IMG/VR virus record: IMGVR_UViG_3300023109_000186
Span: 1-20,275 of that record
Length of the DNA stretch: 20,275 nucleotides
Source: a virus
Strand: one strand, 5' to 3'
In this document: in pieces, positions 2,854 through 19,921 of the stretch
Numbering within the stretch: the first letter of the stretch is position 1
Layout: the number at the start of each line of letters is the position of its first letter
The notes under the pieces: generated by a model
The model's database searches: none
Told to the model about the DNA's origin: nothing
Seen by the model: only the letters and a program-made list of their open reading frames with translations
Program-made: the position numbers and the translations under genes

Positions 2854-3870
2854 CTATGCCTCCAGCTGGAGAACTGTTAGGGTAACTTGTACTGTTGATG
2901 CAGATCCAGATTTGTTTGTGACTCTCACCGGGATTGTTGTATCAGGTGTACTCTCGTTACTAAACCCGATAGTGCCTGGAGAGATAACTACTGTTTCCGC
3001 GCCTGTTGTAATAACTTCGGCAATTACTCCTGAGTCTGGCGTAGGATCTGATGTTTCAACTCTGCTTACATCTGCTGTACGAGCCGCGGCATCAGTATAA
3101 ATTCTTACCCAAGCTGCTCTGTCTGTTTCGATTTTTAGCAAAGCATAACCTTTAAAACCAGTAATTTCTATATTTGCAGAGGCGTCATTGTTCAAAGATG
3201 AAGATGTACCTGTTGCGCTTGAACGAGTTTGTAGAGATGAACCACCTCCTCCGCCTCCACCCAAGTCTGAATTATTAGCAAGCTGTACCCATGCACCGCT
3301 GTGAGCAAAATATGCTGCACCAGTAGCATGAACGTGAGCAAACATGCCGTGATACGTTGCAGCGCTTGGAAGTGAGTTTGTGTCTGGAAAGACGTTTGCG
3401 AAATAAACTTTACCAGTTGTTGTAATATCGTTAGTACCCATATCAAGGTTTACTGCTTGAATTGCGTCAACTGCATCTGAATCCGTATATGTTGAGCCAC
3501 CACCAGATTGTGCAACCCACGCATAGTCACTGCCATTCCAACTTAGTACTTCATTGCTACTTGCAGTACTTGTATTTAAGTGAGTGTCAACAGCAGCGTC
3601 ATTACTTGCTGAAGCATCTACGAATGTAAAAGTGCCTGCTCCATCTGTAGATAGAACTTGTCCTGCAGTACCTTCAGTGATACTAAGATCAAGTAATGTT
3701 GCAGGAATAGTTGGTTTGCCGGACAAACTTGTGTAAGACCCGTCAAACATATTTGCGACGTTGGCGTAAAGCTCAATAAAGTTGCCGTTAACTTTATCCA
3801 TAGCATCGCGCAACGGATCTCCTGTTCCGTCGTTCGACGTTACGCCGATGTTAATATTTTGCCTTGCCAT
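2854..3870 (-). CDS. Tail-fibre/baseplate appendage protein with Gly linker
   Basis: A 338-aa protein that opens with NINIG...NDGTGDPLRDAMDKVNGNF, a motif common at the N-terminus of marine phage fibre and baseplate proteins and likely a particle-attachment element. Next comes a low-complexity Ser/Thr/Gly/Asp region with short repeats of the form seen in trimeric fibres. A seven-Gly linker follows (about residue 205), then a C-terminal beta-rich domain of about 110 residues ending in VQVTLTVLQLEA. A strong Shine-Dalgarno AGGAG lies 6 nt before ATG 3870, and a late-promoter-like element lies just upstream. It directly precedes the protease gene, which suggests a joint adhesion/processing unit. 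It occupies the place of T4 gp9-gp12-type appendage genes, but I cannot assign it to one. Receptor unknown. Confidence 0.65.
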   Translation of the reverse strand: MARQNINIGVTSNDGTGDPLRDAMDKVNGNFIELYANVANMFDGSYTSLSGKPTIPATLLDLSITEGTAGQVLSTDGAGTFTFVDASASNDAAVDTHLNTSTASSNEVLSWNGSDYAWVAQSGGGSTYTDSDAVDAIQAVNLDMGTNDITTTGKVYFANVFPDTNSLPSAATYHGMFAHVHATGAAYFAHSGAWVQLANNSDLGGGGGGGSSLQTRSSATGTSSSLNNDASANIEITGFKGYALLKIETDRAAWVRIYTDAAARTADVSRVETSDPTPDSGVIAEVITTGAETVVISPGTIGFSNESTPDTTIPVRVTNKSGSASTVQVTLTVLQLEA

Positions 3871-7904: not shown

Positions 7905-8321
7905 TTATCTTGTCCTCTCTAGAAATACGTCAACTGATATTGGGTTTGCTTGGTTGCGTATCATGAAGTCAACACGAACTCTTACAGTATTATCATCAAC
8001 TAGAGAGGATACTGATACATCTAGTAATTCAGCTCTAGGCTCGTAAATATCTAGTGTTGTTCGTACTTGGTCTTCGATTGTTTTTAAAACGCCGGGCGTT
8101 ATATTTTCAAATAGCATGGCTTTGAGATGACCACCAAGATTTGGCTGCATCAATCTTTCACCACGGTCAGTAAGTAATAAATTTTTAATTGCTTCTTTTA
8201 CAGAATCTTCGTCTTTGCGCACTGTAATGTCAGAAGACACAGGGCTTTTCTCCATATCCTTTTTAAAATCGGAATATATGGAGATCTTTTTTGTTCTACC
8301 TGTTAATAGTTTTATTGTCAT
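7905..8321 (-). CDS. 25: Baseplate wedge protein gp25 (TssE-like)
   Basis: A 138-aa protein, close to T4 gp25 (132 aa). It has the gp25/TssE fold signature: a helix with SVKEAIKNLLLTDRGERLMQP, then the EPR motif at Glu94-Pro95-Arg96 in IYEPRAELLDV, then beta strands. gp25 with gp6 and gp53 forms the wedge core, and it nucleates sheath polymerisation. Its start overlaps the M15 peptidase stop as ATGA, and it runs directly into gp6, so the genes are translationally coupled. Confidence 0.95.
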   Translation of the reverse strand: MTIKLLTGRTKKISIYSDFKKDMEKSPVSSDITVRKDEDSVKEAIKNLLLTDRGERLMQPNLGGHLKAMLFENITPGVLKTIEDQVRTTLDIYEPRAELLDVSVSSLVDDNTVRVRVDFMIRNQANPISVDVFLERTR

Positions 8322-9949
8322 GTTGACGTAATACCTAATTGTTGTCTTTCTAGTTCCCTAAATTGTTCAGACTTCCAAAGTCTTGTTGGGCCGTAATCAA
8401 TATGAATAAATCCTTTATATCGTCCAAACCCTCTAAAGCCTACTTCTTTTGCTAAGTCCATGAAATCATAAGCTTCATCTGAAACCGGCGTGGTTTCTCT
8501 GTTCCAGCCGGCCCATTTAATATCAAAAGCCATTCCCTTCGTGTGCAGGCTGTTGAGTGTATTAGTTTTACCAGCGTCATAAAGCATTTTCTGATACTGC
8601 ATACTTCTCCAGCAGCTATTTACGATAAGACGCCTACCGGCTTTAGCCTGAAGCGCCATTAGCATGGCTTTTACTTTTCTATCGGTCTGGGTCCATCCAG
8701 CACTTCCAAGAGCCGCAATCCAACCACCTTGAATACCAATCTTAGGATGATTATTATCTTTAATTTCTTCCCAAGTTGGCACGCCTTCATACTCTTGAGT
8801 TGTTGGAGGCGGTACATTACCTTGTTGTTCAAATCTCTCTCTTGAGTTATTTATTCTTTCTTTGCGCACCTCATCATCTAATCTGATAGCTCCAGCTCTA
8901 ATAGCTTCACCTTTTACCCTATCTGATACATTTTTTAGCGTATAAAACACTTCTTCGTAACGTTTTGAGAAGTCATTGAGAGGATCTTTTAGTTTATTAA
9001 TCACTCCTTCAATGCCAGTAATCAATCCACAGATTTTTGCAATTAAAAGTTGTACCTCTTCGATAGATGGATTCTCGAAAACACTCATAGCATAATCGAT
9101 CTGTGCTTTAAGTTTCTTTCCTAGATTCTTAATATTTTCTTCACTAAAGAATTCTAATATTTCTTCTTTAAGCTGAGTAATTCTTTTTACAATTTTGTCG
9201 TTAACAAATGTTTCGATTTGTCCCATAACATTCTCAACACTAAAGTTCTTAATAGCGTTCTCTACTCGCTTGACGATCTTTTGAAATGCCTTTTCCACCT
9301 TTTCTTTGATTGCTTCGATAAGAGCTTTTACTTTAATCTTTTCAAAGAATGCTTTAATTTCATCTTCAACATTACGTATCTTTGCAAGGAATGCAAATGC
9401 ATCCTGAACCAAACCGTCGATATCGTCGAGCAGATCGAAGAAAGCATCAATAGCTGCAAATACATTTGGCATAAGTGCGCAAAACTTTCCTAGGATACTA
9501 TTTGAAGATGACCCAGTATAATAATAGTTAAGTTCAGATACAATCTGTGCCGGCTTTGTATTGTAAAGGTTTTCAATAGAAGTAGGCGTATGATTAAACT
9601 CTCTTAAATACTCAGCATATTCTAAAGGAGTAATAGGACCACGATTTAATCTATATTCTAATACCTCATTATCACCCGCGTTTATGTAAGTTTGTGCAAT
9701 ATCTCTTTTTAAGAAGTCAGTGTTAAAGCTTGAAAGAGATTCGTAAAAGTTTGGAAATCTTTTTACAGATTGAATTAAAGCATTTCTTGAAGTATCCTCA
9801 ATCATGCTTGATCTAAAATTTGTTTCAATTTGATCTAGAGCACTGATTGTAAGCTCACCTCTGCCGTTTACGCCAGAAAGCTTCGTGGTTGTATCTATTT
9901 GTTGGCCAGGATTTAAACATTGGTCCATGCCACAACATTTACACGTCAT
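8318..9949 (-). CDS. M15_3-type metallopeptidase with helical stalk, virion-associated
   Basis: A 543-aa protein from the ATG at 9949. A GGAGG five nt upstream fixes this start over an in-frame ATG at 9973. The N-terminus is Cys-rich (TCKCCGMDQC). Residues about 155-360 are long charged amphipathic helices, probably a coiled-coil stalk. The C-terminal 130 residues are an M15_3 (DUF882-like) peptidase: SCWRS, the SLHTKGMAFD zinc motif (His469, Asp476) and GFIHIDYGPTRLW (His516). Such enzymes cut peptide bonds in peptidoglycan cross-links. It overlaps gp5 by 11 nt and gp25 by 4 nt. T4 has no counterpart at this place. Inference: a baseplate-carried murein peptidase acting with the gp5 lysozyme domain. 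Catalytic fold fairly sure; virion location inferred. Confidence 0.82.
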   Translation of the reverse strand: MTCKCCGMDQCLNPGQQIDTTTKLSGVNGRGELTISALDQIETNFRSSMIEDTSRNALIQSVKRFPNFYESLSSFNTDFLKRDIAQTYINAGDNEVLEYRLNRGPITPLEYAEYLREFNHTPTSIENLYNTKPAQIVSELNYYYTGSSSNSILGKFCALMPNVFAAIDAFFDLLDDIDGLVQDAFAFLAKIRNVEDEIKAFFEKIKVKALIEAIKEKVEKAFQKIVKRVENAIKNFSVENVMGQIETFVNDKIVKRITQLKEEILEFFSEENIKNLGKKLKAQIDYAMSVFENPSIEEVQLLIAKICGLITGIEGVINKLKDPLNDFSKRYEEVFYTLKNVSDRVKGEAIRAGAIRLDDEVRKERINNSRERFEQQGNVPPPTTQEYEGVPTWEEIKDNNHPKIGIQGGWIAALGSAGWTQTDRKVKAMLMALQAKAGRRLIVNSCWRSMQYQKMLYDAGKTNTLNSLHTKGMAFDIKWAGWNRETTPVSDEAYDFMDLAKEVGFRGFGRYKGFIHIDYGPTRLWKSEQFRELERQQLGITST

Positions 9950-12008
9950 AGGTACCTCCAGATTCAGGTTCATTAGTTACAGTGGTAGAAGCTGTTTCGT
10001 AGTTTGCTTTAATCTCATCAAGAACTCTCTCAAATTCTCCAACTGTTATCTTCGCTCTATTCTGTACTAGTTTGCCGTCAGCATAAATCGGTTTCGAGTA
10101 TCTGCTTTGGCCAGCTTTTGGACCGTTTACAATTGGAAGTGAAGCCCACTCTGCGGCAAGATTATTTGCAAAGTCTGTTTTATTCATAGCACCGCTGAGA
10201 TATCCGTCAAGACCACGGAATCTAATTAATTCTATAGCCATTTTATCTTGGTTAATAGGACTAAATTTATCGCCCAATCCTAGACCTGCTCTTGTATATA
10301 ATGGATCACCTGGAGGCGGTGGATCGTTGTCGTCGTTATCATATCCGCGAAGAGTATCTTCCATGATTTGATATCTGCCCATAGCCTCTGAACCAGAAAA
10401 GCTATCAACAGCTTCTTGATATTGAAGAAGCTGACCTATTGTCATAGTTGTAATTGGTCTAGATGGGTGCAGCGCATTATCAATAAAACCTGATATAGCA
10501 TTATACCCACCATCCTGATCTCCTTCAAATCTTGCAATAAGATTCAGGAGAGGAGTTAAGCTGTTTTGCATTGCTGCAGTTGCAGGGGTCGTTGGTGCGA
10601 CAGTTTCTGTGGTCGATACTGTTTCGCCAGAATGGTCAGGTGAAGATGCACCAGCACTACCACGAGATCCAGTATCTCTATTTGTTTGTAGGTTAACACC
10701 TTTCTCAGGAGGCTCTGGAGCTTTAACAGGTTGCGCATTAGTATCCATACCAGCTGGTCTTGCGACATCCTGCGCATCTCTAGCCGCATCTGCGCTGCCT
10801 TCAGCCATACGAACAAAGTCGTCAATAAATGTAGTAGTACCACGAACCATAACATAACCGTCAGAACTTACTCTTAATTCAGCATCACCTTTGAGATCAA
10901 ATGAATCTGTTCCTTGGAATCTTACATCAGCACCTTTGATCTTAAAGTCTTCTGCTGAATCCATAGCAAACAATTTATCTGAGTGCCAAAGCATTTCTTC
11001 TGACGCAGTACCAAATATTTTTGGTGCCTGAATACCGATACCCTGTCCGGCTTCTATCTGCGTTTCTTTCTTTGCGAGTAAAGACATATATCCAACGTTG
11101 GCTTCTACTTTGACCTGTCCTGCTCTCATCTGTAGGTTTTCAGATCCATTGATAATTGTTTCAGGGCCACCTACACCAAGATAATAATTACCATGCACAA
11201 TTTGTTTAAAATCACCTTGAATCTCTTCGATCTTGTGGCCTTTTACATAAACTCGCGCATCGCCATTAATTGTTACAGTACTTGCATTACCAACTAATAC
11301 GTGTTGTTTTCTATCGATAACTTCATATTTGTCTGATGTAGATTTTTCGGTAACAGTGCCACGAGAATCGATCTGTACATAGGAACCTTCTTTATGCCAG
11401 ATAGTAACTCTTTCTGAGCCGGGTGTATCGTCAAGTTCAATAGTATGTACACCGCTTTCAATTACTTTGTTGTGCGGGTATTCGGTATCATATGCTGGTG
11501 CGGGTTCATCCCATGTTTCTTCAGAATCCGCTACTTTAACATTTAAGGCTCTACCCATCTCCCATTCAACGAGAGATGTTTCGTGTAAATATTCACCGCG
11601 TGCTAGTCTAGAGACGTCATGCTGACCAATGCTTTCTGGTTCAGATCCCTTAGCAAGAAGATGTGCATCTCTTGGCGGAATAGTTCCCCAGCCATTCTTT
11701 TCTGGATCAATCCCATCAAGATTTTGTGTTGGAACTGTACCAATAATCATAGGTTGCTGAGCATGTCTTCCGTCTAGGAATAAACCAAACACCCATTTAT
11801 TTACCTTTGCGCCGTGGAAAACGTTCGCGTCATAGGCGCCTGAAACAAGAACAGCCCAAGGTAAATCGTCATCAGGTATATCTTTATTTGTTCCGTGTAT
11901 ACCAAACGCGCGCACCTGCACTCGCCCTTCTTTACGAGGGTCAACAGTGTTTGCAATAACACCTACAAACCACAGTGGGTCGCGTATTCCTATACCGTAA
12001 TCAGGCAT
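9939..12008 (-). CDS. 5: Baseplate hub spike gp5 with C-terminal lysozyme-like domain
   Basis: A 689-aa protein from ATG 12008 (MPDYGIGIRDPLWFVG). A TTG further out at 12047 is open but has no ribosome site. The N-terminal OB fold (FVGVIANTVDPRKEGRVQVRAFG ... PMIIGTVP) is that of gp5/VgrG spikes. Residues about 190-430 resemble the triple beta-helix (VLVGNASTVTINGDARVYVKG and similar). A Ser/Thr/Pro linker leads to a lysozyme-like domain at about 484-650: ARFEGDQDGGYNAI (Glu495, probable acid), AMGRYQI, KFSPINQDKMA, FRGLDG and AAEWASLP. This block order matches lambda R/GH104 transglycosylases. T4 gp5 has its lysozyme between OB fold and helix, so the enzyme is moved here. It overlaps the hub gene by 8 nt. 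Confidence 0.9.
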   Translation of the reverse strand: MPDYGIGIRDPLWFVGVIANTVDPRKEGRVQVRAFGIHGTNKDIPDDDLPWAVLVSGAYDANVFHGAKVNKWVFGLFLDGRHAQQPMIIGTVPTQNLDGIDPEKNGWGTIPPRDAHLLAKGSEPESIGQHDVSRLARGEYLHETSLVEWEMGRALNVKVADSEETWDEPAPAYDTEYPHNKVIESGVHTIELDDTPGSERVTIWHKEGSYVQIDSRGTVTEKSTSDKYEVIDRKQHVLVGNASTVTINGDARVYVKGHKIEEIQGDFKQIVHGNYYLGVGGPETIINGSENLQMRAGQVKVEANVGYMSLLAKKETQIEAGQGIGIQAPKIFGTASEEMLWHSDKLFAMDSAEDFKIKGADVRFQGTDSFDLKGDAELRVSSDGYVMVRGTTTFIDDFVRMAEGSADAARDAQDVARPAGMDTNAQPVKAPEPPEKGVNLQTNRDTGSRGSAGASSPDHSGETVSTTETVAPTTPATAAMQNSLTPLLNLIARFEGDQDGGYNAISGFIDNALHPSRPITTMTIGQLLQYQEAVDSFSGSEAMGRYQIMEDTLRGYDNDDNDPPPPGDPLYTRAGLGLGDKFSPINQDKMAIELIRFRGLDGYLSGAMNKTDFANNLAAEWASLPIVNGPKAGQSRYSKPIYADGKLVQNRAKITVGEFERVLDEIKANYETASTTVTNEPESGGTYDV

Positions 12009-15659: not shown

Positions 15660-16285
15660 TGGCTGAGATATTTAGCAACATTCTATCACAAGGTATTAGA
15701 GCGGGCCAGATGCCTGCTCGTACAGCACAGGCTCGCGATTGGTATAGAGACCAAGCAAAAGAAGTTACTCGGTCATCTCGAAACGGAACTCGCGCAGATC
15801 AATTGATACGAGAGATTCGTAGAGATGGAGATAGACCGCAGCGCAGTACATTTAGACTGGGTGACATGTATCTTTTTACCTACGATCCAAAGCATAAAGA
15901 CAAGCTTCCGTACTATGATAGGTTTCCTCTTATTTTTCCAATAAATAAAGCTAAGGGTGGATTCTTAGGTATTAATATGCATTACCTACCGCCAATGTTA
16001 AGAGCAAAGTTAATGGATCAGTTGTATACTGTTACGACAAATAAACGTTTTGATGAGACTACAAGATTAAGATTGTCATATGATATTTTGAATGGTGCGG
16101 CTAAGTTTAGAGAGTTTAAGCCGACGATCAAACATTATCTCAGTGCTCATGTGAGAACAAAGCCAGCTTACATTTATCCAAGCGAATGGGATGTTGCATT
16201 GTTCTTACCAACGCAGAAATTTGTCGGTGCGAATGCTACTCAGGTTTATGCCGACTCTAGAAGAATCATAAGGGCGTCACGTTAA
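15659..16285 (+). CDS. Conserved phage structural/assembly protein, function unknown
   Basis: A 208-aa protein between gp4 and the gp54-like gene, coupled to both by TAATG overlaps. The first 65 residues are Arg/Gln-rich and helical (ARTAQARDWYRDQAKEV). A compact domain follows: LGDMYLFTYDPKHKDKLPYYDRFPLIFPI, then GGFLGINMHYLPPMLR. I think this pattern recurs in marine and other T4-like phages, but I cannot name it with confidence. The neighbour of gene 4 in T4 is gene 2 (DNA end protector), so a gp2-like role is one guess; a neck or tail-tip role is another. The basic N-terminus would suit DNA contact. No enzyme motif, membrane segment or signal peptide is seen. Confidence 0.75.
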   Translation: MAEIFSNILSQGIRAGQMPARTAQARDWYRDQAKEVTRSSRNGTRADQLIREIRRDGDRPQRSTFRLGDMYLFTYDPKHKDKLPYYDRFPLIFPINKAKGGFLGINMHYLPPMLRAKLMDQLYTVTTNKRFDETTRLRLSYDILNGAAKFREFKPTIKHYLSAHVRTKPAYIYPSEWDVALFLPTQKFVGANATQVYADSRRIIRASR

Positions 16286-17076
16286 TGGCATTTAACTTAT
16301 CACAATTCAAATCTCAGATGGACTGGTTCGGTGGACCAGATCGTGCCTCTTTATTTGAAGTAGAGCTTAGTGGTCTACCTTTAACTAAATCGAGAGCGGG
16401 TTCATATGACCTTAAATTTTTCTGTAAAAACGTAGCCATACCCGGCATGATCTTTAACCCAGCTCAATATGAAGCCGTGGGCCAGATGCGTAAGGTCTAT
16501 CCTATGGGATTTAACCCAGAACCAGTACAAGCAATCTTCTTACTTGATGCTGATAAACAAGTACTTACATTCTTTCATGGCTGGGCACAGAGTATGGTAA
16601 ACTTTAGTACTGCAGGCGGAGCATTCTCTGCCGTTGACGGTACGAAACCATTTGAAATTAATTATCGTGATGATTATGCATGTCGAATGGTTATCAGACA
16701 TTATAGTGCAAACTATACAGAAACCGGACAATATTATGAGGTAATTCTAGATAAAGCATTCCCAATTCAAATGGGTGATGTGGATCTTGCATGGGAGAAC
16801 GGCGACAGTTTTGTTGTTCTACCAGTAAGTATTCAATATGACAGAATTGAGTTCTCAGGTGAAAGATACGGTGTTCCTATAGGTGGGGATGGAAACAGCC
16901 TACTTAAATTACTGACAGCTGCCGGTAGAATCAACGACATTATGGGCGGTGATATTCTTCCACAAGGTGTACAGGATGCAGTTAATAAACTCACTGGCAT
17001 TAACGCAGAATTTGACAATATTTCTAGAAAAGGTCGAAGCTTCGCAAACCAGGTGAGTAGATTCTTAGGTGGATGA
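16285..17076 (+). CDS. Baseplate-tail tube initiator, gp54-like (tube fold)
   Basis: A 263-aa protein with the tail-tube fold pattern: RASLFEVELSGLPL, then KFFCKNVAIPGM, a central strand set, and KAFPIQMGDVDLAWENGDSFVVLPVSIQYDRIEF. The last part matches the late strands of T4 gp19 (WPTNVGELQLDWDS...LALDYWE) in shape. It is longer than gp19 (163 aa) by a helical C-terminal tail (INDIMGGDILPQGVQDAV), which fits gp54, the adaptor between gp48 and the first tube ring. The start overlaps the upstream stop (TAATG). Alternatives are the tail tube itself or a tube paralogue. Confidence 0.65.
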   Translation: MAFNLSQFKSQMDWFGGPDRASLFEVELSGLPLTKSRAGSYDLKFFCKNVAIPGMIFNPAQYEAVGQMRKVYPMGFNPEPVQAIFLLDADKQVLTFFHGWAQSMVNFSTAGGAFSAVDGTKPFEINYRDDYACRMVIRHYSANYTETGQYYEVILDKAFPIQMGDVDLAWENGDSFVVLPVSIQYDRIEFSGERYGVPIGGDGNSLLKLLTAAGRINDIMGGDILPQGVQDAVNKLTGINAEFDNISRKGRSFANQVSRFLGG

Positions 17077-17093: not shown

Positions 17094-17792
17094 ATGCTAC
17101 CAAAAATTGATCTTCCTATTTTTGAAACAACCTTACCATCAACAGGTGAGAAAGTCAAATATAGAGCGTTTACAGTTAAAGAAGAAAAGATTCTTCTTGT
17201 TGCGCAGGAATCTAACGATATCGGTCAAACTATCTTAGCAATCAAACAGGTCGTAAATAATTGTGTTCTTAGTCATGACGTAGCTGAGTTTGCTATGTTT
17301 GATCTAGAATACATGATGCTTATGATACGTGCTAGGGCAGTTGACGATACAGTTAAATTCGTAATTACAGATCCAGACACTGATAAACCAGTAAACTTAG
17401 AGATGGCTTTAGATGATGTACAGATTGTAAAGAAAGATGAACATAAAAATGAAGTGGCTATCAATGATGAATACAATCTTTACTTAAAGTATCCAACGAT
17501 AGACCAGTTCATAAGAATTGTAGAGATGGATCAGTCAGATCCTCTTGTAAATTATACGATTATGATATCTTGTTTGGATAAAGTGGCTTCGGAAGACGAG
17601 GTTCATGAGTTTACGAACTACTCTGAAAAAGAGATAGATCAATTCATGGAAAACGTTGATACTAAGGTCCTTAAAGGTATTCAAAAATTCTTTGAGACTA
17701 TGCCTAAGTTAAAGCATGAAGTAACTTATGTAAATGATAACGGAGATGATAAAATATACGCTGTTGAAGGAATCAATAGTTTTTTTTTCTAG
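17094..17792 (+). CDS. Baseplate hub assembly protein gp26-like / tail-assembly chaperone, short form
   Basis: A 232-aa protein of the T4 baseplate hub-assembly family. It opens LPKIDLPIFETTLPSTGEKVKYRAFTVKEEKILLVAQES, which I take as the gp26 signature (T4 gp26 is 208 aa). The rest is mixed alpha/beta and strongly acidic, ending INSFFF at a nine-T run. AGGAG lies 10 nt before ATG 17094. The gene sits directly before the tape-measure gene, where other tailed phages encode a short chaperone and a frameshifted long form. A -1 shift at the T run would give such a long form here (see the extension entry). T4 gp26 and gp51 are hub-assembly factors, so a chaperone role is consistent with both views. 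Confidence 0.8.
   Translation: MLPKIDLPIFETTLPSTGEKVKYRAFTVKEEKILLVAQESNDIGQTILAIKQVVNNCVLSHDVAEFAMFDLEYMMLMIRARAVDDTVKFVITDPDTDKPVNLEMALDDVQIVKKDEHKNEVAINDEYNLYLKYPTIDQFIRIVEMDQSDPLVNYTIMISCLDKVASEDEVHEFTNYSEKEIDQFMENVDTKVLKGIQKFFETMPKLKHEVTYVNDNGDDKIYAVEGINSFFF
17780..17789 (+). promoter_or_regulatory. Slippery heptamer run for -1 ribosomal frameshift
   Basis: Nine T residues (17780-17788) and a C follow AGT in the gp26 frame. Read in zero frame they give T TTT TTT (17780-17786) and T TTT TTC (17783-17789), both allowing tRNA-Phe to re-pair perfectly one base back. The zero-frame TAG follows at 17790-17792. A stem-loop begins 5 nt after the first heptamer, a standard spacing. Confidence 0.8.
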
Positions 17793-17959
17793 TGCTGAGC
17801 CACATTAGTTTGGCGGATTACTATAAAGTGGTGTTCGCTTTGGCTCAGCACCATAAATACTCTATAAGTGATATTGAAAACTTAATGCCATATGAGCGTG
17901 ACATCTACTACAACATGATTATAAATTATATTGCAGAGCAAGAACAAAATCGAGGTTAA
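17786..17959 (+). CDS. -1 frameshift extension of the gp26-like chaperone (long form C-terminus)
   Basis: In the -1 frame the sequence stays open from the T run to TAA 17957-17959. It adds 57 residues after Phe231, for a 288-aa fusion (start 17094). The extension reads VLSHISLADYYKVVFALAQHH then ISDIENLMPYERDIYYN and ends EQEQNRG. The helical LMPYERDIYYNMI element is protein-like and resembles the short C-terminal domains that contact tape-measure proteins in G/GT-type chaperones. There is no ribosome site or good start for separate translation upstream; an internal ATG in the frame has no Shine-Dalgarno. The stop lies 3 nt before the tape-measure ATG. Product predicted, not shown; a missing T in the run (sequencing error) would equally give one 288-aa gene. 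Confidence 0.75.
   Translation, partial: FLVLSHISLADYYKVVFALAQHHKYSISDIENLMPYERDIYYNMIINYIAEQEQNRG
17792..17851 (+). promoter_or_regulatory. Frameshift-stimulating stem-loop
   Basis: Bases 17792-17802 (GTGCTGAGCCA) pair perfectly with 17841-17851 (TGGCTCAGCAC): 11 bp without mismatch, seven of them G-C, in an AT-rich setting. The loop is 38 nt. The stem starts 5 nt after T TTT TTT and 2 nt after T TTT TTC, where a paused ribosome would meet it. Both arms are coding in the -1 frame (VLSH and LAQH). I looked for a pseudoknot partner of the loop in the next 60 nt and found no convincing one. Confidence 0.8.
17852..17859 (+). promoter_or_regulatory. Possible internal late promoter (CATAAATA)
   Basis: CATAAATA differs from the T4 late element only in the first base and lies 104 nt before the tape-measure ATG, touching the 3' arm of the stem-loop. 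It lies inside the frameshift extension, so it may be chance coding sequence (HHKY). Confidence 0.25.
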
Positions 17960-17962
17960 GAG

Positions 17963-19921
17963 ATGGCTCTTTCAGAAGATACACAAGCTATCATAGATAG
18001 ACTAAAAGCAGAAGGCGATTTGATCCGCGACAGCGGACCTAATTCTATGCGAGCTGTAAACATTAAACTAGATCGATTTGAAGGTCTGTTTAAAAGTATC
18101 AACGATAATGTCATCAGTCAAACCGATATGATGCGCCAGCAAATGGGCATAGCTTCTCAACAAAGACGTCAAGAAGAAACTCGCCGCCAACAAGAAGAAG
18201 TACTACCACCCGAACCGACAAGCGAACCAGCAGCTGGAAGTCCAGTAAACGGGCGAGCGAATGGCGAAAGAAATATCGATAGTGCAAGTAAGTCGATTGC
18301 CGAAGCTTTATCATTTAAGAACATTGTACTTGGTGGTGCTGCGTTGTTCGCAGGATATAATATTCTAAAAGGTTTCATCGATCAGAAAACTGGTGGTGGA
18401 TTTACCGATATGGAAAGTGGTATCGGAGATTTTGCGTCTAAATTAAGAACGTTCGAGATGCCAGATTTTACAGGCACAATGACTAGATTAAATGAAACAA
18501 TTGACGGCCTTAAAACTACAATCGATGGTCTAAGAGCTGATATAGAAAACACCGTATCTACCCTCAAGGACTGGCAATTTTGGATCAGTCTTGCTATCGG
18601 AGCAATTGGTCCTTTTGTTGCAATTAATAGACTACTTAAAATTAGATTAGAAAAACTCCGGTTGCAAAATCTAGAATTAGAAAAGCCCCCTAATGTTCCT
18701 GATGATGCGCCAACCCAGCCGAAAATAGGCAATTACGATGTAGATAGTAATAATCCAAACTTCAGAGGATGGGGTGAAGATGGCAGACCGGTTTTTGGAG
18801 ATACACCTAACGCGCCTAGAGTTATTCTTAGACCAGATGGTACACCAATTAGAGGTGGTTCGCCAACAAAACCGCCTGCTGTGACTGATATACCGCCTCG
18901 ATTTTCAACGCCTCCAGGTGGTTCAGATACTCCAGTACTTTCTACTCCTGATGGCTCAACACCAAGAATGTCACTGCCAGATATGTCAACTCCAGAATTG
19001 CGTGGCCAAAACAGACCAATAATAGCAGATAATATCACTAGAGGTGGTGGTAAAATTGGCTATAACCAAGGCGCGGGCAGATTTACTGTAAACCCAGATG
19101 GAACTGGTGGATTTCTTTCAGACGCCGATGCAATTAAAATGATGGGAGAAAATATTGTTCGCGAAGCTCCACGCTACGCTAAAGCTTATGCTAACGTTGT
19201 TAAATTTTTAAAGTTCCTTGGGCCACCTGCGCTAGCATACGAGATATTTAGAGTTTATGTGGTGATGACATCAAGCTCAACCAAATCACAAAAGATCGCA
19301 GCTGTATCAGGAATCATTGGTGGGATGGGTATTGGTTTCGTTGCAGGCGGCTTAGTAGGTGCACAATTGGGTATTTGGTTCGGACCTTGGTCTGCTCTTA
19401 TCGGTGGTTTACTTGCCGGTGTTGCTTTTGGCTTTGGTGGGGAATACATTATTAGCGCTATGGTAGAAGCGATGTTTGAAGAACCGGAAGCTAGGCAAGC
19501 AAGATACAAAGAAATGCAAGAGCACCAATTAGAAGCTATGAGACAAAACGGTTCATACGCCGATTACCTAAGTTCTATGGAAAGAGCGCAAATGGGCGGA
19601 TCAAGAGCGTTCTCAGATTCTGGTTTTGCTCCAGATCTAGGGTTCGGTTCTGGCGGTGCTCTTGGGAACTCTAGAGGTAACTATTTTATGGGAAGAGACG
19701 GTCAAATGTACCGTCAGGATGGACAGACGTATCGAGTTGAAAGAATGTCATTAGGTGGCGTTGGGGGAGGTGGTGTTGTAATCAACGCGCCTCAAATAAG
19801 TGCGCCCGTAGTGAATAATGTAGAAGGTGGGAAGTCGGCCAACTACATTCAGATGGCCTCCTTCGGTGGTGGCGGTGGCGGCTTTGGAAGCGACGATCCC
19901 TACAACCTATCATTTGTATAA
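17963..19921 (+). CDS. Tail tape-measure protein (gp29-like hub protein)
   Basis: A 652-aa protein directly after the gp26 chaperone frames, the usual tape-measure place; T4 gp29 is 590 aa. Residues 1-80 are helical, ending in a Gln/Arg/Glu-rich coil. Hydrophobic segments lie at about 120-139, 205-224, 412-434 and 444-499, the last Gly/Ala-rich and probably two or three membrane spans, suiting a protein that helps DNA cross the inner membrane. Residues 242-350 are Pro/Thr/Gly-rich and probably disordered. The C-terminal 90 residues are Gly-rich and end DDPYNLSFV. GAGG lies 7 nt before ATG 17963. At about 1.5 angstroms per residue the length suggests a tail near 100 nm, comparable to T4. No murein-hydrolase motif is seen. 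Call made from context and hydrophobicity more than from motif. Confidence 0.75.
   Translation: MALSEDTQAIIDRLKAEGDLIRDSGPNSMRAVNIKLDRFEGLFKSINDNVISQTDMMRQQMGIASQQRRQEETRRQQEEVLPPEPTSEPAAGSPVNGRANGERNIDSASKSIAEALSFKNIVLGGAALFAGYNILKGFIDQKTGGGFTDMESGIGDFASKLRTFEMPDFTGTMTRLNETIDGLKTTIDGLRADIENTVSTLKDWQFWISLAIGAIGPFVAINRLLKIRLEKLRLQNLELEKPPNVPDDAPTQPKIGNYDVDSNNPNFRGWGEDGRPVFGDTPNAPRVILRPDGTPIRGGSPTKPPAVTDIPPRFSTPPGGSDTPVLSTPDGSTPRMSLPDMSTPELRGQNRPIIADNITRGGGKIGYNQGAGRFTVNPDGTGGFLSDADAIKMMGENIVREAPRYAKAYANVVKFLKFLGPPALAYEIFRVYVVMTSSSTKSQKIAAVSGIIGGMGIGFVAGGLVGAQLGIWFGPWSALIGGLLAGVAFGFGGEYIISAMVEAMFEEPEARQARYKEMQEHQLEAMRQNGSYADYLSSMERAQMGGSRAFSDSGFAPDLGFGSGGALGNSRGNYFMGRDGQMYRQDGQTYRVERMSLGGVGGGGVVINAPQISAPVVNNVEGGKSANYIQMASFGGGGGGFGSDDPYNLSFV

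Follow-up and report, generated by a model that had tools for sequence, protein, structure and literature searches.

Gene Organization of the Junction Locus

The 20,275 bases of the window are a fragment from an uncultured T4-like virus. The + strand carries genes for a head-closure-like protein, a DNA end protector and the tail tube, along with a gp26-like gene, an open -1 frame and a tape-measure-like gene. The features around the junction of the gp26-like gene and the -1 frame are the following:

16285-17076, + strand: tail tube protein gene, directly 5' of the gp26-like gene (PF23849, E = 2.4e-7; phrog_45, E = 2.9e-27)
17094-17792, + strand: gp26-like gene, predicted short chaperone form (TAC-N-like), 232 aa (PF12322, E = 3.5e-51; phrog_150, E = 5e-55)
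17780-17789, + strand: slippery run TTTTTTTTTC, read from the sequence, with the heptamers T TTT TTT (17780-17786) and T TTT TTC (17783-17789) in frame
17790-17792, + strand: 0-frame stop TAG, end of the short form, read from the sequence
17792-17802, + strand: 5' arm of a putative stimulatory hairpin, GTGCTGAGCCA (folding; covariation in relatives)
17841-17851, + strand: 3' arm of the putative hairpin, TGGCTCAGCAC (folding; covariation), closing a 38-nt loop that is itself foldable
17789-17959, + strand: -1 frame extension, gp51-C-like (TAC-C-like) (phrog_634, E = 4e-23; hhalign to the T4 gp51 C-terminus, E = 5e-8)
17963-19921, + strand: tape-measure-like gene, 652 aa, weak by profile (phrog_167, E = 5e-5; phrog_794, E = 0.003; phrog_1047, E = 1.8e-6)

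The gp26-like gene is flanked by a firmly assigned tail tube gene and by a tape measure gene with weak profile matches: phrog_167 and phrog_794 stand for tail length tape measure and phrog_1047 for tail associated lysin. The -1 frame ends with the stop codon at 17957-17959, and the next ATG (17963) follows 3 nt downstream, as had been noted in the first-pass annotation of the window. The lambda G/GT-like arrangement proposed there is borne out by the gene order, the gp26-like gene and its extension lying between tail tube and tape measure, with the tape measure weak by profile. The same gene order is annotated in RHph_I1_18, and a tape measure is annotated in Cr30 and HTVC008M, too. Weak EF-hand matches were observed for small genes of HTVC008M (segment 3397-3729) and phiN3 (segment 2693-3112) that separate the chaperone gene from the next large gene, which is tape-measure-like. 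Promoter/terminator and tRNA scans revealed nothing relevant. Elsewhere in the window, the - strand encodes a 559-aa subtilase-family protein (1174-2853; PF00082, E = 3.5e-27) amid baseplate/structural genes and a 551-aa protein (8318-9973) amid baseplate genes, the latter with a peptidase M15-like domain at its C-terminus.

The Slippery Run and the -1 Frame in Relatives

The 0-frame of the gp26-like gene ends with AGT (17778-17780), TTT TTT TTC and TAG (17790-17792), i.e., with nine T residues (17780-17788) followed by C. For comparison, 160 loci with both protein parts were taken from viral contigs, mostly of marine origin; in all, 163 loci, a few of them phage genomes, hold both parts and yield 96 distinct junctions. 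The extension lies in the -1 frame relative to gp26 in each of the 163 loci, which derive from many assemblies and vary in the length of their T-run. T TTT TTT or T TTT TTC was found in frame 2-5 codons 5' of the gp26 stop in 95 of the 96 distinct junctions, the lone exception being G TTT TTT, as compared to 4 of 21,528 codon positions in the rest of gp26. Moreover, T TTT TTN is in frame in all 16 further frameshift-type phages examined outside the Ackermannviridae, namely cyanophages, a pelagiphage and phages of Methylophilales, Rhizobium, Sinorhizobium, Caulobacter, Desulfovibrio, Vibrio, Aeromonas and Cronobacter. Among the junctions of relatives, differences in the -1 extension amount to 0.27, 0.15 and 0.47 at codon positions 1, 2 and 3, respectively: the -1 frame is under purifying selection, and the extension shows the evolution of a coding sequence read in this frame.

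In Cronobacter phage S13 (segment 3178-3375) and Aeromonas phage G2 (segment 3181-3369), too, gp26 has T TTT TTC at its end, followed by a -1 extension that is missing from the annotation. Ackermannviridae relatives and Vibrio phage K476 possess an overlapping -1 extension without a T-run (segments 3220-3244, 3140-3160 and 2480-2492); the site in KNP4 is G GTT TTC, of the kind known from T7 gene 10, and in K476 the stop is part of TAATG. Because the T-run is absent and these other signals are present, decoding in the Ackermannviridae relatives and K476 may differ from that in the T-run phages.

A Hairpin Downstream of the Slippery Run

The first-pass annotation had additionally pointed to an 11-bp stem after the run. 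This stem, formed by GTGCTGAGCCA (17792-17802) and TGGCTCAGCAC (17841-17851), is perfect in the window and begins 5 nt after T TTT TTT and 2 nt after T TTT TTC. A stretch of 101 nt starting at 17780 folds with -29.7 kcal/mol (z = -3.6). For the 75-nt stretch of the relatives that begins with the gp26 stop, the median z was -3.7, with 84% below -2, whereas control windows within gp26 gave a median z of -0.1, with 10.5% below -2. The spacing between run and stem is nearly fixed in the relatives, at 5-7 nt.

Covariation was analyzed in 87 junctions (75 distinct sequences) that align almost without gaps. RNAalifold detected no consensus structure in the full 87-row alignment, which includes stemless rows, and pairs were therefore counted on a named stem with nine core pairs. 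These nine pairs are formed in 94.5% of the cells over the 75 distinct sequences, and two-sided changes numbered 51 as compared to 14.4 in shuffles. The covariation score was 0.227 versus 0.127 in shuffled alignments and was reached in none of 500 shuffles; shifting the stem partner by 1-3 columns reduced pairing to 24-35%. The most telling pair occurs as A-U (25), U-A (25), U-G (15) and G-C (2); its 5' base is position 1 of a Ser/Cys codon, and its 3' base, 47 nt downstream, is position 3 of an Ala GCN codon, a synonymous wobble position that is free at the protein level. Parsimony on the gp26 protein tree requires a minimum of 11 changes for the 5' base of this pair and of 25 for its 3' base. 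Independent covariation comparisons on well-supported branches number 3-4, almost all of them in the expected direction, which is too few for significance. About one quarter of the 96 junctions are without an uninterrupted stem at the same place. Since other T4-like groups have different downstream hairpins or none, the 17792-17851 stem is a feature of the marine clade and not of the whole T4-like family.

Relation to T4 gp26 and gp51

Homology of the window proteins was found both to gp26, corresponding to the short form (PF12322), and to the C-terminus of gp51, corresponding to the end of the long form: the extension family phrog_634 is labelled "baseplate hub assembly catalyst", i.e., gp51, and the hhalign profile comparison links the last approximately 45 residues of T4 gp51 to the -1 extension (E = 5e-8). 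A gp26-like front part had been expected from the first reading of the window, along with a chaperone-like C-terminus. The fusion was modeled with AlphaFold2 from a translation in which TTTT was read as F, leaving out one Phe; the model has a mean pLDDT of 81, with the link between residues 227 and 243 poorly predicted. Foldseek against a viral library returned many gp26/baseplate hub protein matches. Foldseek of the fusion model against the PDB gave no significant match, the HK97 tail assembly chaperone (gp13, 2ob9) being found at rank 16 (E = 1.4, prob 0.47), and PDB sequence searches with gp26, the fusion profile and T4 gp51 gave nothing meaningful.

T4 gp51 is colinear with the window fusion, consisting of a gp26-type domain and an extension-like end. 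As its residues 1-201 match PF12322 (3.9e-52; T4 gp26 matches at 8.8e-64) and its last approximately 45 residues match the -1 extension, T4 gp51 is, judged from its sequence, the long form in one uninterrupted frame, and T4 gp26 the short form. T4 and its close kin would accordingly make the short form from gene 26 and the long form from a separate gene 51, while the window phage would make both from one gene. Genes 26 and 51 are divergently oriented in T4, and a frameshift joining them within T4 itself was thereby ruled out. In RB43, gp51 and gp26 are in tandem, in the order 51-26-25. An apparent gap of about 2 kb between gp26 and gp51 in P-SSM2 turned out to be an artefact, the two records compared having different coordinates.

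A tree of gp26-type domains places T4-type gp26 and the N-terminal part of gp51 together in one clade (99/98), which would be consistent with one duplication; the T4 segment 4803-6229 is among the data for this clade. The frameshift type falls outside and includes the Straboviridae phages phiAS5 and S13 as well as Vibrio phage D491s. The branches of this tree are long, and a support of 75/89 does not fix the exact attachment point. It had been suggested initially that the gp26/gp51 functions either derive from or converge on a frameshifted chaperone system: the fact that T4 gp51 itself is composed of a gp26-like domain plus the extension speaks in favour of common descent of the frameshift gene and T4 gp26/gp51 within T4-like phages.

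Proposed Decoding of the Junction

The locus is very probably a tail assembly chaperone gene that is read in two ways by -1 ribosomal frameshifting. Following this, we propose that most ribosomes stop at 17790-17792 and release the gp26 short form, whereas a minority would pause at the hairpin 17792-17851 with both tRNAs on T TTT TTT (or T TTT TTC), shift back by one base, bypass the stop and add approximately 56 residues, yielding a gp26-gp51C fusion of approximately 288 aa as the long form. If the two forms work like lambda gpG/gpGT, the short form would coat the tape measure protein and the C-terminal part of the long form would recruit tail tube subunits, neither form being expected to remain in the virion. 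Sequence shows the signals and how they are conserved, as well as the covariation and the homology, and it is the frequency of the frameshift, the protein amounts and the chaperone action that we infer. The programmed -1 frameshift proposed in the first-pass annotation is supported by the invariant -1 frame, the conserved run and the covarying stem of the relatives.

The locus might instead comprise two separate genes, gp26 ending and the same ribosome restarting at an overlapping start (TAATG or TAGTG) to produce a free gp51-like peptide, as cyanophage records annotate. This is improbable. An ATG or GTG does overlap the gp26 stop in the -1 frame in 53 of the 96 junctions, the stop context in the window is TAGTG and two genes are annotated in many GenBank records; however, a Shine-Dalgarno-like sequence precedes only one of these 53 possible starts, and in 34 of the 96 junctions the -1 frame reaches the conserved YYK motif without any ATG, GTG or TTG. 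Moreover, the slippery run, superfluous for reinitiation, is almost invariant (95/96) and is kept where the start codon is not, and T4 gp51 is a continuous fusion with a gp26-like domain.

Slightly less probable still is transcriptional slippage, in which RNA polymerase would add or skip a base in the T-run and some mRNAs would carry the fused frame. Nine T residues, as present in the window, suffice for polymerase slippage in some bacteria, but the run is only T6C in 14 of the 96 junctions and also in the majority of the examined cultured phages, which argues against this route, and a covarying hairpin at a near-fixed spacing of 5-7 nt is a signature of ribosomal frameshifting. An assembly or sequencing error splitting one gene, e.g., the loss of a tenth T, can be dismissed: homopolymers are prone to error, but the -1 offset is identical in all 163 loci, whose runs differ in length, and is also found in finished phage genomes, which refutes such an error.

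Comparison With Known Tail Assembly Chaperones

The proposed ribosomal frameshifting at this locus has to be seen in the context of earlier work on T4-like phages. T4 genes 26 and 51 were reportedly assigned as tail assembly chaperones (TACs) by Vladimirov and colleagues in 2022. The identification of the T4-like TACs is credited to Vladimirov, Gautam & Davidson (Virology 2022, 566:9-15) in the PRFect and Adele papers (PMC10885494; PMC12846349). According to the PRFect paper, separate short and long genes occur in some T4-like phages (PMC10885494), and the Adele paper mentions T4-like phages whose TAC-N genes have poly-T frameshift sites (PMC12846349). The statement in the first-pass annotation that no described frameshift was known for gp26/gp51 is thus not supported: as cited in these papers, T4-like TACs with a frameshift in some groups were already reported in 2022, and the window locus is a well-supported further example. 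As the core idea was published then, the gain lies in confirmation, breadth, a candidate RNA stimulator and the evolutionary relation of the frameshift gene to the duplicated gene pair; the covarying hairpin and the grouping of T4 gp26/gp51 in one clade are possibly new, and of all parts the most likely to be so. Many independent marine sequences provide strong comparative evidence for a frameshift that is entered as two genes, or overlooked, in many public records, and the role of T4 gp26/gp51 becomes testable as that of a short/long chaperone pair.

With the T4-like TACs of the 2022 study, as they are cited, the window phage shares the gp26/gp51 gene family and the -1 frameshift logic, and it differs in being an uncultured marine member. 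As compared to T4 genes 26 and 51, PF12322 is common to T4 gp26 and gp51 (1-201) and the gp51 C-terminus matches the window -1 extension; however, T4 has two divergent genes without a frameshift, whereas the window has one gene with a predicted frameshift.

In lambda, the short form gpG binds the tape measure lengthwise and the rare gpGT brings tail tube subunits (PMC5009743). Both systems have the gene 5' of the tape measure and short and long forms via a -1 frameshift near the 3' end, with the long form being the minority in lambda; the likeness proposed here is one of working, and the window phage, unlike lambda gpG/gpGT, has a T-run and a downstream hairpin. That gp26 and gp51 may act like gpG and gpGT is suggested by analogy, since the gene order fits, T4 gp26 and gp51 appear in a published list as hub assembly chaperones (PMC3004832) and an assignment as TACs has been published. 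Finally, the TAC genes of Vandenendeviridae and Andersonviridae (PMC12846349) have in common with the window a -1 frameshift in the TAC gene of a myovirus, but they belong to a different phage family and use a different slippery motif, GTTTTT.
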